64,000 bases of DNA from Polaribacter vadi (GTDB lineage: Bacteria; Bacteroidota; Bacteroidia; Flavobacteriales; Flavobacteriaceae): positions 3,028,001 to 3,092,000 of the forward strand of contig NZ_CP017477.1 of NCBI RefSeq assembly GCF_001761365.1, given 5' to 3'. Positions within the stretch are counted from its first letter, which is position 1. Each line of letters begins with the position of its first letter. Below are positions 19,301-27,382 of this stretch, one piece after another. Under the pieces are notes generated by a model. The model saw nothing but the letters and a program-made list of their open reading frames with translations, was not told the DNA's origin and ran no database searches. Position numbers and translations under genes: made by a program.

Positions 19301-19549
19301 ATGAAGTTTACAGAAAAAATAAAACATCCAGAATTTTGGAGAAATTTTACAAGAATTGCCATTCCTTTTTTTATCATCGTTATTGTTTTCTCTCTGTTAT
19401 GGAATAGTTGGAGTCAAATTTTTTCGGGTGATTTTGCAGCAGTTGCAGAAACCAACTTTAATGATGGAAAATGGAAAACATTCTTTGGCGTTAAAATAGT
19501 AGTATGTGTTATTTACGGTTTGTATGTAACTAATAAAAATATGAAATAA
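19301..19549 (+). CDS. Small unknown membrane protein
   Basis: The 82-residue protein has two transmembrane helices (FTRIAIPFFIIVIVFSLLW and GVKIVVCVIYGLYVTNK). It starts immediately after the MazG-like stop and ends at a strong terminator. Small proteins of this kind next to MazG and aroA are common in Flavobacteriaceae, but their function is unknown to me. Confidence 0.8.
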   Translation: MKFTEKIKHPEFWRNFTRIAIPFFIIVIVFSLLWNSWSQIFSGDFAAVAETNFNDGKWKTFFGVKIVVCVIYGLYVTNKNMK

Positions 19550-19578
19550 AAAAAAGCGACTTATTAAGTCGCTTTTTT
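19548..19578 (+). terminator. Rho-independent terminator of the PAP2-mazG-membrane protein operon
   Basis: A perfect stem AAGCGACTT / AAGTCGCTT with loop ATT and flanking A- and T-runs begins at the stop codon of the small membrane protein gene. Confidence 0.85.
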
Positions 19579-19700
19579 GCACTTTGGTAATCTCAATGTG
19601 TTATTTTGAGATTGAACTGGATTTAAATAAAACCACATTATTTTCGTGTTTTCCAATTACAATGAATCTAATGAACGTCAGTCTGAGCTTGTCGAAGACG
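19579..19700 (+). repeat. MITE-like unit, copy 1 (left of GIY-YIG gene)
   Basis: This ~122-bp unit opens with GCACTTTGGTAATCTCAATG and ends with GTCAGTCTGAGCTTGTCGAA. It matches the unit at 20094 along nearly its whole length, including the inner landmarks GGATTTAAATA and AACAATGAATCTAA (here TTACAATGAATCTAA). Its left terminal repeat is decayed compared with the other copies. It ends six bases before the GIY-YIG stop codon. Confidence 0.8.
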
Positions 19701-19706
19701 ATTCAA

Positions 19707-20015
19707 CTACATTCTAGAATTAAAATTTTCTGTATAATTTTTAGAAAACTTTACTAAATCATCCCAATTTTCATCAATTAAAGCTTGTTTTTTTCTTCTA
19801 GACCAACCTTTTATTTTCTTTTCATATTGAATTGCATCTCTAGGGTCTGAACATTCCAAATACCATTTCAGTTCTAAAGGTAATCTAGAACTTGTATAAG
19901 AATCTTTACTTTTACCAGACTTATGTTCTATTATTCTTCTTTCTAAATCGTTCGTCATTCCTGTGTAAAACGATTTATCAGAACAAAGTAAAATATAAAC
20001 ATAATAGACTCTCAT
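19707..20015 (-). CDS. GIY-YIG nuclease family protein
   Basis: The 102-residue protein is a single GIY-YIG domain of the UPF0213/UvrC-N type: VYYVYILLCSDKSFYTG (YVY and YTG as the GIY and YIG equivalents), NDLERRIIEH with the catalytic Arg region, and IQYEKKIKGWSRRKKQALI with the metal-binding Glu (Glu65). Such domains cleave DNA with one metal ion. There is no additional DNA-binding domain. The gene is enclosed by MITE-like repeats: its stop lies six bases from copy 1, and copies 2-4 start about 80 bases upstream of its start. Several flavobacteria carry many such genes; a link with the repeats is inferred here. Confidence 0.9.
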   Translation of the reverse strand: MRVYYVYILLCSDKSFYTGMTNDLERRIIEHKSGKSKDSYTSSRLPLELKWYLECSDPRDAIQYEKKIKGWSRRKKQALIDENWDDLVKFSKNYTENFNSRM

Positions 20016-20093
20016 TTTTTATTTTAAATTGATGTGATTTGATAAATTACTTATGTAAATATATTAGTTGAGCTTATGGAAAATCACTCAGTT

Positions 20094-20480
20094 GCATTTC
20101 GACAAGCTCAATGTGACCTTTTGAGTTTCAATTGGATTTAAATATAACTACATTATTTTCTTGTTTTCCAATAACAATGAATCTAACGAACGTCAGTCTG
20201 AGCTTGTCGAAGACCTTTGTACGCATTTCGACAAGCTCAATGTGACATTGTTAGTTGTTAATTGGGTTTTAGTAAAACTACATTATTCTTTTATTTTCAA
20301 ATAGTAGTAAAAATAACGAATGTCAGTCTGAGCTTGTCGAAGACTTTTTGTTGTATTTCAATAAGCTCAATGTGACATCCTTATTTTTAATTGTTTTTAG
20401 TAAAACTAAATTATTTTATAAATTTCAAATTATAATAAATCTAAAGAATGTTAGTTTAAGTTTACTAAAAAACATCAATC
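20094..20480 (+). repeat. Three tandem ~129-bp MITE-like units (copies 2-4)
   Basis: Units start near 20094, 20223 and 20353. In copies 2 and 3 the left end TTTCGACAAGCTCAATGTGA and the right end GTCAGTCTGAGCTTGTCGAA form terminal inverted repeats matching at 17 of 20 bases. All units have the same orientation. Copy 4 is degenerate (ATAAGCTCAATGTGAC to GTTAGTTTAAGTTTACT). Together with 20016-20093 they fill the 459-bp gap before the next gene, and no coding sequence was seen there. Confidence 0.9.
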
Positions 20481-23400
20481 CAACTGAATCAAATCGATAT
20501 TACTGTCTTTTACTTTTTGATTTAACTCTTTTACACCATTTGTAAAAAGAGCATTTAATTTCACCAGTTCTGCATCAATTTCTTTTGTAATTTTATTTTT
20601 AAAATCGATTGCTTGTTGAGTAGGAGCGTAGTTACCAATTCTTGTTAACGAGTTTAAATGTGCCAATTTATTATTTAAACGTATTGGATAATTCAAAGGG
20701 TCTTGTCCACTTTTAGATTTTGTTTGATATAAAGTTTCCTCAATTTTGGTCATATCTTTTACAAGTTTATCAGCAAAATCTAGTAACTCTTTATGTTTTG
20801 TTTTATCAGTAATAGATTTTTTTAACAACCCAACTTGACTTCTTACTTTCTTTACATTTTTCAATGCTTTGTGTATTTCAGTCATTTTACTGTTAATGTC
20901 GTTGATGAAATCAAACTGTGCTTTCATTTCAGATTCACTAACTTCAGAACTTGGGTTGTTGATAATTTTAAAATTTTGAGTTTGCTTAGAATCATTTACA
21001 ACCAATTCCACTTTATAAGTTCCAGGCAAAGCCATTGGCCCATTTAAAGAAGCCCACCACAAAATCATTCCTTCTACAGATTCTGCTCCATCATACATCA
21101 TATTCCAGTTAAAAATATTATTTCCATCTTCAACTTTTAGAGTACCTTCTTTATTTTCTTTGTTTGGTTTTGTTGAGAATTTCTTAATTAAATTATCATT
21201 CAAATCATAAAAAGAAAGTGAAATTGTATCTTTTTTATTTACTGATTTGATAAAATAATTCACAGCAACTCCACCTGCATGATTGGTTCCAGCAGTTCTA
21301 GAAGTTCGTCCATTTCCACCAGATAAATTATACGCATCTTTCGGTTTGTATAAAACAACTTCTTTTTTTAATGTTGATGAATTTAGTTGATGTAAAGGTG
21401 TTAAATCGTCAATAATCCAAAGAGATCTACCTTGCGTTGCTACAATTAAATTATCGTCTTTTATGGCTAAATCTGTGATAGGTACAATTGGTAAATTTTG
21501 CTGAAAAGATTCCCAATTTTTACCATCATCAAACGAAACATACATTCCTTTTTCAGTTCCTGCATACAACAAACCTTTACGTTTTGGATCTGCTCTTAAA
21601 GCTCTTGTAAAACTTTCTTCTTCAATACCATCAACTATTAAATCCCAAGATTTTCCATAATTTTCAGTTTTATAAATGTAGGGTCTGTAATCTCCAGATT
21701 TGTATTTTGTACCAACAATATAGGCACTTCCTTTATCAAAAGGACTCACTTCAATACAGTTAATCATCATCCATTCTGGCATTTTTTTAGGAGTGATATT
21801 TTCCCATTTTTCACCATTATTTTTAGAAACGTGCACTAAACCATCATCTGAACCTGTATAAATTAAACCCGTTTCTAAAGCAGATTCTGTAGCAGCGAAA
21901 ATGGTTCCATAATATTCTACACCAGTATTATCTTGTGTAATTGGCCCTCCAGAAGATTTTAAAGTTTCAGGATCATTTCTTGTTAAATCTGGACTGATTA
22001 ATTTCCAAGATTGCCCTTCATTTTCTGTTACATGCAAATGATTAGAACCTGCATATAATCTTTTTTTATTGTTTGGTGAAAAGAAAATTGGGAAATTCCA
22101 CTGAAATCTGTATTTAAAATCTTCAGCTCCATGACCCATTGGGTCATCTGGCCAAACATTAATAGCACGAGTTTCATTCGTTTTATGATTTACTCTTGTA
22201 AGCAAACCACCATAACTTCCACCATAAACAATATCATCATTTAAAGGGTCCACAGCAATATGTGCACTTTCTCCACCAGCAGTTGAACTCCAATCAGATT
22301 CTGTTATAAATCTACCATCATTTCTGTGCGAAATTCTCACAGTAGAATTATCTTGTTGTGCAGATAAAATTCTATATGGAAAATGATTGTCTGTAGTAAC
22401 TCTATAAAATTGAGAAGTTGGTTGGTTGTTCATGGTACTCCAATTTTCACCAGCATCAAAAGAAATTTGCGCTCCTCCATCATCACCAATAATCATTCTT
22501 TGGTTATCTTCTGGAGCAATCCATAAATCATGATGATCTCCATGAGGAGCATTGTAGGTTTTATACGTTTTTCCACCATCTGTAGATTTATGATAGCGAA
22601 CATTTAATACATATAAAATATCTTCATCTTGAGTATCTGCATACAAACGTGTGTAATACCAAGCTCTTTGTCTTAATTTTCTTTCAGAATTTATTAAACT
22701 CCAAGTTTTTCCTGCATCTGTAGATTTGTAAACTCCACCTTTTTCATTTTCGATTAAAGCGTACACAATATCAGAATTTACAGGCGAAACTGTAACTCCA
22801 GCAATTCCCCAAATTCCAGTAGGTAACCCTTTATTTGTAGAAATATTCGTCCACGTTTCACCTTCATCAGTACTTTTCCAGAGTGCAGAACCTTTTCCTC
22901 CAGAAGATAAACTGTAAGGAGTTCTTCTCACATCCCAAGTTGTGGCATATAAAATTCTTGGATTATTAGGATCGATAATTAAATCTATAACTCCAGAATT
23001 TTCATCAGAAAATAGTACTTTTCTCCAAGTTTCTCCACCATCAACAGTTTTGTAAACACCTCTTTCTTGAGTCGGTTTGTATAAATCTCCCATAACTCCT
23101 GCAAAAACAATATCTGCATTTTTTGGATGAATTCTCATTCTTGGAATATGTCTTGAGTTTTTTAAACCCATATGTTTCCATGTTTTTCCTGCGTTTTCAG
23201 ATTTCCAAATTCCATCTCCAGAAGAAACATTTCCACGAACTGTTTTTTCTCCCATTCCAACATAAATTACATTATTATCCGATTCTGCAACTGCAACTGC
23301 ACCTACTGAACCTCCAAAAAATCCGTCGGAAATATTTTGCCAAGTGTTACCTGCATCCGTAGTTTTCCATACACCACCACCAGTTGCACCCATGTAAAAT

Positions 23401-26057: not shown

Positions 26058-26172
26058 GGGCGTTCCCTAAAAAGGTCGCGCTTTCCATTGTATCTTTTTT
26101 TAAGAAAAATAAAAAAAGGATGGAACCTGTCTTGAGCAAAGTCGAAAGGTTTCAATCGCTAACGCAAGCCAA
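26058..26172. repeat. Conserved-looking intergenic element with nested REP-like insertion
   Basis: The text GGGCGTTCCCTAAAAAGG, TCGCGCTTTCC and later TTTCAATCGCTAACGCAAG resembles a frequently seen flavobacterial intergenic element. Within it, CCTGTCTTGAGCAAAGTCGA (26117-26136) resembles the ends of the MITE-like units near 20,100. No ORF is present. The family assignment is from memory of similar sequences and not from a search. Confidence 0.45.
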
Positions 26173-27290: not shown

Positions 27291-27382
27291 AAGTTCGAGC
27301 GCAGTCGAGAACTATTTATAAATAAAAAAAATGTTTACTTTTGATACTAATATTGACCTTTCGACTGCGCTCAAGGTGACAA
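27291..27382. repeat. REP/MITE-like inverted repeat pair (GAGCGCAGTCGA...TCGACTGCGCTC)
   Basis: Two 12-bp arms, GAGCGCAGTCGA near 27297 and TCGACTGCGCTC near 27361, are perfect reverse complements about 52 bases apart. The right arm context CTTTCGACTGCGCTCAAGG and following GTGAC resembles the left end of the units at 20094 (TTTCGACAAGCTCAATG), so this looks like a diverged member of the family. Confidence 0.8.
27336..27343 (+). promoter_or_regulatory. -7 promoter box (TACTTTTG) inside the repeat loop
   Basis: TACTTTTG matches TAnnTTTG and lies between the two arms of the 27291-27382 repeat, 50 bases upstream of the polyprenyl synthase ATG. If used, the transcript would carry one repeat arm in its leader. 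Confidence 0.4.

Follow-up and report, generated by a model that had tools for sequence, protein, structure and literature searches.

Why does a gene for a small GIY-YIG nuclease stand inside an array of repeats in Polaribacter vadi, with one copy of a repeat of ~130 bp on one side and three copies on the other? This question is raised by the stretch of 64 kb analyzed here (the window), which lies in a single-contig genome of 3.81 Mb. An earlier reading of the letters and open reading frames (the sequence-only reading) had proposed one family of MITE-like units driven by the nuclease. Our analysis suggests, with a probability of about 0.7, that small standalone GIY-YIG nucleases are dedicated partner enzymes of tag-plus-hairpin repeat families. 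The features of the window are as follows.

19550-19578, + strand: terminator-like hairpin with perfect 14-bp arms; a similar hairpin stands here in the insert-free relatives L261, L266 and L277
19580-20476, no strand: insert of about 890 bp, consisting of unit 1, the GIY-YIG gene and units 2-4; exact borders uncertain; site empty in L261 and other same-genus relatives
19581-19699, + strand: repeat unit 1; left arm decayed, about 19581-19602; right arm intact, GTCAGTCTGAGCTTGTCGAAGAC, 19677-19699
19707-20015, - strand: GIY-YIG nuclease gene, clade I; ORF of 102 aa; PF01541 at E=1.8e-17; AF2 mean pLDDT 83; nearest solved fold UPF0213 1zg2
20098-20214, + strand: repeat unit 2; arms 20098-20117 and 20192-20214
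20227-20344, + strand: repeat unit 3; arms 20227-20246 and 20322-20344
20357-20473, + strand: repeat unit 4; left arm 20357-20376 with 2 mismatches; right arm decayed, about 20450-20473
26117-26136, no strand: single related arm, CTTGAGCAAAGTCGAAAGG, recognized by sequence
27291-27382, no strand: two related arms, GTTCGAGCGCAGTCGAGAAC and, in reverse, GTCACCTTGAGCGCAGTCGAAAGG, recognized by sequence

The gene among one and three repeat copies had been described before, and this arrangement was confirmed by the ORF, by its domain match and by four copies lying in register, with cores at 19613-19690, 20128-20205, 20258-20335 and 20386-20463 (spacing 515, 130 and 128). The 20-bp unit ends match in inverted orientation at 17 of 20 bases, the same count as reported earlier, and the 20-bp end with up to 3 mismatches was found 6 times in the 64 kb compared with a mean of 0 in 100 shuffles. 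One arm has decayed in each of units 1 and 4, and the intact arm at 19677-19699 stops 7 bases short of the stop codon of the GIY-YIG gene (19707-19709). Comparison with insert-free relatives placed the left edge of the insert at the terminator-like hairpin; no target-site duplication could be established at the insert, as these relatives are too diverged to fix its borders. The two places at 26117-26136 and 27291-27382, earlier named as more distant relatives, do hold related arms. A known structured RNA was considered for 19400-20700 and rejected, as Rfam gave 10 matches at E<=1 and none at the gathering score.

The arm is more than a terminal inverted repeat: within it, a GTCA tag is followed by a small hairpin. 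Solitary arms exist as well, as do arms whose tags point outward. The MITE-like description holds for the terminal inverted repeats, which are present in the window units, but misses the make-up of the arm. One related arm in the window reads GTCA-CCTT-GAGCGCAGTCGA-AAGG, and the left arms of the window, GTCA-CATT-GAGCTTGTCGA-AATG, follow the same scheme of tag and stem. A scan of the window, L050-L055 and L065-L253 gave 211 distinct arms at 58 loci that fit the pattern GTCA nn CTGAGC N2-4 TCGAAG n'n'. The free stem pairs n'n'/nn were complementary in 409 of 422 cells, G-T counted, whereas shuffling gave a mean of 181 and a largest value of 219; with one arm per locus, 113 of 116 were complementary compared with 49 after shuffling. 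The test covers two outer pairs only, because the CT/AG part of the stem was fixed by the search pattern. All four Watson-Crick pairs were represented among the inner pairs of the stem. The complementarity of the free pairs thus indicates that the arm consists of a tag and then a 4-bp stem that is under selection and encloses a loop of 11-12 nt. A tetranucleotide tag with an imperfect hairpin, which is a feature of REPtrons, is found here as GTCA plus nnCT-loop-AGn'n'.

Across the whole genome, the end pattern (three free bases) had 16 perfect matches at six places and one-mismatch matches at two more, and with up to 3 mismatches it had 28 matches compared with 3 for a reversed control, which shows that the repeat is dispersed. 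The two largest clusters lie in the window and in the 1570-kb region. A single decayed arm adjoins a long 7-bp tandem, (CCACGAA)n, at L056:2380-2500 (P. vadi near 3678846).

The window protein consists of a single GIY-YIG domain (PF01541) and is close in size to UPF0213-type small nucleases, which have about 80-100 aa with conserved Tyr, Arg and Glu. Residues Y7, Y17, G19, R27 and E65 were invariant in 17 aligned homologues, and we take these to be the catalytic residues of GIY-YIG nucleases. The AlphaFold2 model (mean pLDDT 83, pTM 0.73) had one fold match at E<0.001, UPF0213 1zg2 (E=5.5e-6), followed by 1ywl (0.004), Slx1 structures (0.014 and above) and the N-terminal domain of UvrC (0.14); the solved sequence relatives at E<=0.01 were 1zg2 and 1ywl only. 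Slx1 and UvrC act on branched or distorted DNA. By a pattern of our own making, the C-terminus was SSTSSD, SSTGSD or close to these in 34 of 120 listed homologues (of 478 matches). A sequence such as TCTTCGACAAGCTCAGACTGA would encode this type of C-terminus, as a repeat arm would, judging from the protein sequences alone; LSLSKH was found inside two homologue N-termini.

The linkage of gene and repeat was measured in a sample with two parts: 80 named loci, the best 80 of 538, that belong to the protein clade of the window gene, and genes among the matches listed from 60 genomes of the same phylum. An HMM applied to these loci gave 228 GIY-YIG genes, 208 of them with usable flanks (250 bp or more). 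For each gene, up to 400 bp of one flank was aligned with up to 400 bp of the other in direct and in inverted orientation, and a score of at least 34 counted as a shared flank. ORFs lying 1.5 kb or more away, taken from the named loci and the window, served as controls. In this comparison, which the sequence-only reading had called for, GIY-YIG genes were repeat-flanked far more often than other genes: flanks were shared in 157 of 208 GIY-YIG genes (mostly Bacteroidota; best 80 of 538 loci plus the listed matches) and in 23 of 724 control ORFs, for which local repeat density is only partly matched because they come from the same contigs as the first set. The rate was 68/84 in the first set and 89/124 in the second, and 8/130 in small control ORFs; 51 of the 208 GIY-YIG genes stayed below the threshold. 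Within the genus sample, 20 of 30 GIY-YIG genes had shared flanks and 10 had none at the threshold. For clade-I genes of the named loci and the window, GTCA heads recurred on both sides in 65/82 compared with 16/724 controls; the strict window-type arm was present on any side in 46/82 compared with 20/724, and on both sides in 35/82 compared with 2/724.

Repeated flanks were also seen beside other small genes. Among the S23/23S_rRNA_IVP four-helix genes (PF05635; L332-L361), flanks were shared in 15 of 30, for the most part as short-period repeats in inverted orientation, e.g. CAGTAATCAGTAATCAGT; the inverted alignment scored at least as high in 13 of these 15, and recurring GTCA words stood on both sides in 7 of 30. 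Two control genes with strongly repeated flanks (L125:6917-7301 and L111:14270-14627) were, by eye, one DUF559-like and one S23 four-helix-like. Eight GIY-YIG genes stand in tandem with a spacing of about 364 bp in L202 (G052:C34:6991-9748), and smaller tandems were found in L167, L221, L227, L245 and L250.

A FastTree tree of 207 domains (one frame >250 aa omitted; few columns, with many forks unresolved) contained three large groups, clades I, II and III, with 90, 34 and 70 rows. Label A (GTCAnnCTGAG) was carried by 55 rows of clade I and label B (GTCAnTTCGAG), which is nested, by 17; label C (other GTCA heads) by 24 of the 34 rows of clade II; and label T (tRNA within 150 bp) by 42 of the 70 rows of clade III. 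These labels, which were defined after inspection of the heads, changed 50 times on the tree compared with a shuffled mean of 125. When genes were assigned by nearest reference, the clades had 101, 36 and 70 members, with shared flanks in 78, 25 and 53 of them, respectively. The flank copies were mostly in direct orientation (clade I 62/78, clade II 19/25, clade III 52/53). In a test less tied to the genome, the flank similarity of each of the 103 clade I/II genes whose flanks are shared to its nearest protein from a different genome was set against the median for 15 GIY-YIG genes drawn at random; it was higher in 93 cases, lower in 8 and equal in 2. A few pairs scored very high (e.g. 554 and 1385) and are probably syntenic orthologues. 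Against same-genome paralogs, the nearest-protein flank exceeded the mean in 17 of 22 cases and the maximum in 16, failing to do so in 5 and 6 cases, respectively. Repeat type thus tracks protein clade more than genome. The linkage of gene and repeat lies far beyond chance and is paired by clade, and the repeat is a selected hairpin with a fixed tag. The idea of one repeat family had to be given up, as other GIY-YIG clades have other repeats, including classical CGTC REPs.

Clade III differs in its surroundings. A tRNA gene lay within 150 bp of 43 of the 208 GIY-YIG genes, always on the same strand, compared with 2 of 819 control ORFs; it was upstream in 32, downstream in 7 and overlapping in 4, and direct flank copies were present in 30 of the 43. 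Several clade-III loci have a downstream partial tRNA copy in which one arm appears, by eye, to be swapped for another hairpin. Loci at tRNA genes include L178, L203, L166, L233, L234 and L158, the gene usually lying just 3' of the tRNA. A single uniform tag for all clades was rejected, as clade III is mostly without GTCA heads (both sides in 15/70) and is tRNA-linked instead.

P. vadi itself carries five small GIY-YIG genes and two long frames with the domain (608 and 456 aa), and the repeats beside the five small genes, read by eye, are mostly different. The window gene is flanked by GTCAnnCTGAGCTTGTCGAAG; gene 1637873 by arms of the GTCATTCCC..GGGAATCCAT type on both sides, with an array of GTCATTTCGACTTTTTAGGAG units on one side; gene 660303 by GTCATTGCGAGG..GGCAATCTG on both sides; gene 1530242 by arrays of GTCACTTCGACTTTAGGAGAA..TTCTCCTAGCGTCGAAATGAC; and gene 238837, between hisH and hisA, by TTCTGAACTTGTTTCAGAA and CCCTGAAACAAGTTCAGGG. 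Genes 1637873 and 1530242 have related flank DNA in common (score 103), and the flank of gene 1637873 is closer to that same-genome paralog than to the nearest protein elsewhere (27). Mobility driven by a RAYT was considered and rejected for the window repeat, as neither of the two PF01797 genes of P. vadi lies near class-A arms and both have other repeats in their flanks. By eye, these Y1 transposase genes (L330 and L331; P. vadi 566729 and 1192521) carry non-GTCA palindromes of their own, GCTCC..GGAGC and GCGAG..CTCGC.

A class of REP sequences from other bacteria fits the same pattern. As described in PMC3733652, CGTC repeats have a CGTC head, an 8-9 bp stem, a loop of 4-5 nt and a CCA-like tail, include Neisseria dRS3, and "apparently lack a dedicated transposase", their mobilizer being left open in that 2013 text. 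A tblastn search with the P. vadi clade-II protein matched 34 records of a plasmid collection, some of them chromosome-sized, and 16 of these were taken at first, two of which are not from Proteobacteria (L318 and L326). GTCA-headed hairpins flanked the gene on both sides at 9 of 16 GIY loci (control ORFs, 1 of 93) and on any side at 11/16 (control ORFs, 4/93); variant palindromes were seen by eye beside the genes of L318, L324, L326 and L329 as well. The description of CGTC REPs in PMC3733652 fits the clade-II flanks of several species, among them S. meliloti, A. lipoferum and N. gonorrhoeae, an example being CGTCATTCCCGCGCAGGCGGGAATCCAG beside the gene of L317. L320 and L322 had a palindrome on one side only, and no repeats were seen in the flanks of the gene of L328 (Sphingomonas paeninsulae), which lies between rnc and era. 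Six further loci were added, among them L365, L366 and L367, which nearly duplicate L327, L320 and L323; flanks were shared in 5 of the six. Over all 22 loci, flanks were shared in 18, compared with 0 of 7 housekeeping-like GIY-YIG genes (UPF0213), which were picked by names, neighbors and weak similarity; L370, one of these seven, has a GTCA-headed hairpin on its left side.

In four whole records, the CGTC pattern, which misses variant arms, matched 196 times in N. gonorrhoeae, 12 times in the S. meliloti record, 10 times in A. lipoferum p3 and 4 times in Aeromonas caviae, compared with 0 for a control pattern. Two of the four matches in the A. caviae record (4.94 Mb) have, by eye, an 8-bp stem, and both flank the GIY-YIG gene. 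A Sphingomonas parapaucimobilis gene (L363), matched by the window protein at 46% identity, carries CTGAGCGAAGTCGAAG arms, which belong to the clade-I repeat class of Bacteroidota but have GTTCA instead of GTCA before the stem. The GIY-YIG gene lies between sufB and sufC in Azospirillum lipoferum (L316) and, from the sequence, apparently also in Shinella sp. PSBB067 (L325). That of L318 (Planktothrix agardhii p1) stands with GTCATTCTGAG arrays and a four-helix gene among DISARM genes and a gene for an MmeI-type enzyme.

Relatives of P. vadi show the window site without the gene. In 14 relatives the two genes bordering the cluster, an 82-aa ORF and a sortilin-like gene, are neighbors with a gap of 51-254 bp, compared with 926 bp in P. 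vadi. The GIY-YIG gene was absent from this site in all 29 same-genus loci, 15 of which have no sortilin-like gene within 1.5 kb. L261 keeps the terminator hairpin and the downstream border and lacks the insert, L283 has one solo repeat unit, and L263, L265, L272 and L260 have other GTCA- or GTC-type dimers at the site. Close relatives of the window gene were found at other loci in G232, G215 and G220. The hisH-hisA gap measures 373 bp with its GIY-YIG gene in P. vadi and 0-64 bp in 14 of 29 relatives; the gene had no match in this gap in the 29 relatives, several of which carry other inserts. A GTCATTCC dimer stands in the gap in L288 and L295, a partial relative of the gene lies on the opposite side of hisH in L285, and in L286 and L293 the gap is occupied by an ORF of four-helix type (by eye) and AT-rich repeats. 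Clade-I genes of the genus had a neighbor in common in 59 of 435 locus pairs, the class-B group (L380-L387) being syntenic, and several GIY-YIG subclades keep the same locus in many genomes of the genus, indicating that the gene itself moves rarely.

At the level of genomes the association of gene and repeat is moderate. A clade-I profile match at E<=1e-25 was present in 20 of 58 genomes of the genus. The strict arm occurred in 43 of 198 genomes of the phylum, where a control pattern matched once in all, and at least 3 arms were present in 10 of 23 genomes with a clade-I profile match (E<=5e-28) compared with 18 of 175 others (p=2e-4). A strict dependence of repeat number on the gene was rejected: the link across the 198 genomes is only moderate, and G002, with 208 strict class-A arms and no clade-I profile match at E<=1e-12, contradicts a simple rule. 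Many arms without a clade-I match at E<=5e-28 were also present in G173, G079, G131, G048 and G024. Repeats abundant in genomes without the gene family had been named beforehand as a finding against a nuclease-driven repeat, and G002 is in part such a case; the flank enrichment and the agreement of repeat with clade speak for that proposal. Either G002 has lost its partner gene or another enzyme spreads its arms. Copies of GIY-YIG with stop codons lie between arms in G071 (E=5e-16, clade unsure) and G020 and beside arms in G169, which would fit loss of the partner gene after repeat spread; G102 has an intact gene between two arms.

The reading as partner enzymes rests on the flank association, its clade specificity, the stem covariation, the CGTC flanks and the empty sites, together with the absence of shared flanks in the seven housekeeping-like genes, the arm-like C-termini and the differing repeats beside the P. 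vadi paralogs. We counted against it the arm-rich genomes without a clade match, the genes without a shared flank, the persistence of the gene at one locus, the flank of gene 1637873 that is closer to a paralog, and the lack of an established target-site duplication. GIY-YIG is a homing-nuclease fold, and a freestanding homing endonuclease that targets the repeat, invades repeat sites and co-copies the flanking repeat, while the repeats spread by other means, would produce mostly direct flank copies through co-conversion or tandem growth; clade III, which lies next to tRNA genes and in many cases has a further partial copy downstream, also suits it. However, different GTCA- or GTC-type repeats occupy the same intergenic place in relatives without the gene, and repeats therefore insert without it. 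This explanation needs another mobilizer of equal clade specificity, and the two Y1 transposase genes of P. vadi carry other repeats; we regard it as improbable.

Still less probable, in our estimate, is that the nuclease stays in place to control the repeats by resolving or trimming cruciforms, the adjoining repeats being kept as its regulatory hairpins. The conserved position of several subclades within the genus and the fold relationship to the branched-DNA nuclease Slx1 (weak, E 0.014 and above) are in its favor, but gene and repeats stand together at a site that is empty in relatives, another such gene lies between sufB and sufC, and repeat-rich genomes without the clade exist. Chance or a shared preference, with small genes and REPs gathering in loose intergenic spots or a general transposase moving both, has a very slight probability: intergenic hot spots exist, and S23 four-helix and DUF559-like small genes also have repeated flanks, 7 of 30 S23 genes with GTCA words on both sides, whereas controls (23/724; small controls 8/130), the clade specificity of the repeats and the 0/7 of the housekeeping-like genes speak against it, and the S23 flanks are mainly short-period inverted repeats and not tag-hairpins.

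For the partner-enzyme reading, we propose that the nucleases are partnered with GTCA-tagged repeats in Bacteroidota and with CGTC REPs in Proteobacteria, each clade having its own hairpin class and the gene being carried between copies. The nuclease would recognize tag and hairpin when single-stranded or extruded and might nick at the hairpin foot; repair or strand transfer could then multiply the repeat at new intergenic places, and the repeat-gene-repeat cassette may be multiplied, more rarely, by the same route. A wider version is advanced tentatively, at slightly under even odds, namely that GIY-YIG nucleases as an entire class drive hairpin repeats and spread them by a hydrolytic route that would be new, clade I acting on GTCA repeats, clade II on CGTC REPs including dRS3, and clade III on tRNA 3' parts, leaving downstream a mutated tRNA copy with a different hairpin in place of one arm. 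The main novelty would probably be the convergence of an unrelated nuclease on the tag-hairpin design read by RAYT. A narrow search found no literature linking GIY-YIG to REP sequences, RAYT or repetitive extragenic palindromes, which does not prove novelty. Intergenic DNA of many bacteria is full of short palindromic repeats, and for the CGTC class PMC3733652, which defined it, reports no enzyme. A candidate enzyme family with matched repeat-protein pairs in single genomes makes the question of the mobilizer testable, and it would supply a function for many genes labeled 'GIY-YIG nuclease family protein', 'hypothetical protein' or 'excinuclease ABC subunit C'.

Among known systems, homing endonucleases of the phage T4 SegB type are alike in being small GIY-YIG genes near tRNA genes that spread by target cutting. 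SegB reportedly acts between phage tRNA regions, and we know of no REP-like repeat family associated with it. The UPF0213/YazA-YhbQ proteins (1zg2, 1ywl) have the same domain and size as the window protein, but the seven housekeeping-like genes of this type had no shared flanks, unlike the repeat-linked GIY-YIG genes. From CGTC REPs the window arms differ in their GTCA tag, shorter stem (4 bp) and longer loop (about 11 nt), and the enzyme-less state given for that class in PMC3733652 contrasts with the GIY-YIG genes flanked on both sides in 9/16 loci compared with 1/93 controls. The closest likeness suggested earlier, to REPs and their RAYT transposases (REPtrons), stands for the anatomy, with a tag and a covarying hairpin, and fails for the enzyme. 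In both systems a hairpin follows a 4-base tag, the repeats form clusters and inverted dimers, one gene lies between repeats of its own kind and many copies have no gene; for GTAG REPs the tag-hairpin is what RAYT reads (RAYT side from PMC3733652). The RAYT enzyme is a Y1 (HUH) tyrosine transposase (PF01797) with the tag GTAG, whereas the flanked gene here encodes a GIY-YIG nuclease (PF01541) with the tag GTCA or CGTC, for which the covalent tyrosine chemistry of RAYT is not expected. The pair described here would thus be a REP/RAYT-like couple in which a hydrolytic nuclease of the Slx1/UvrC fold may have replaced the tyrosine transposase.
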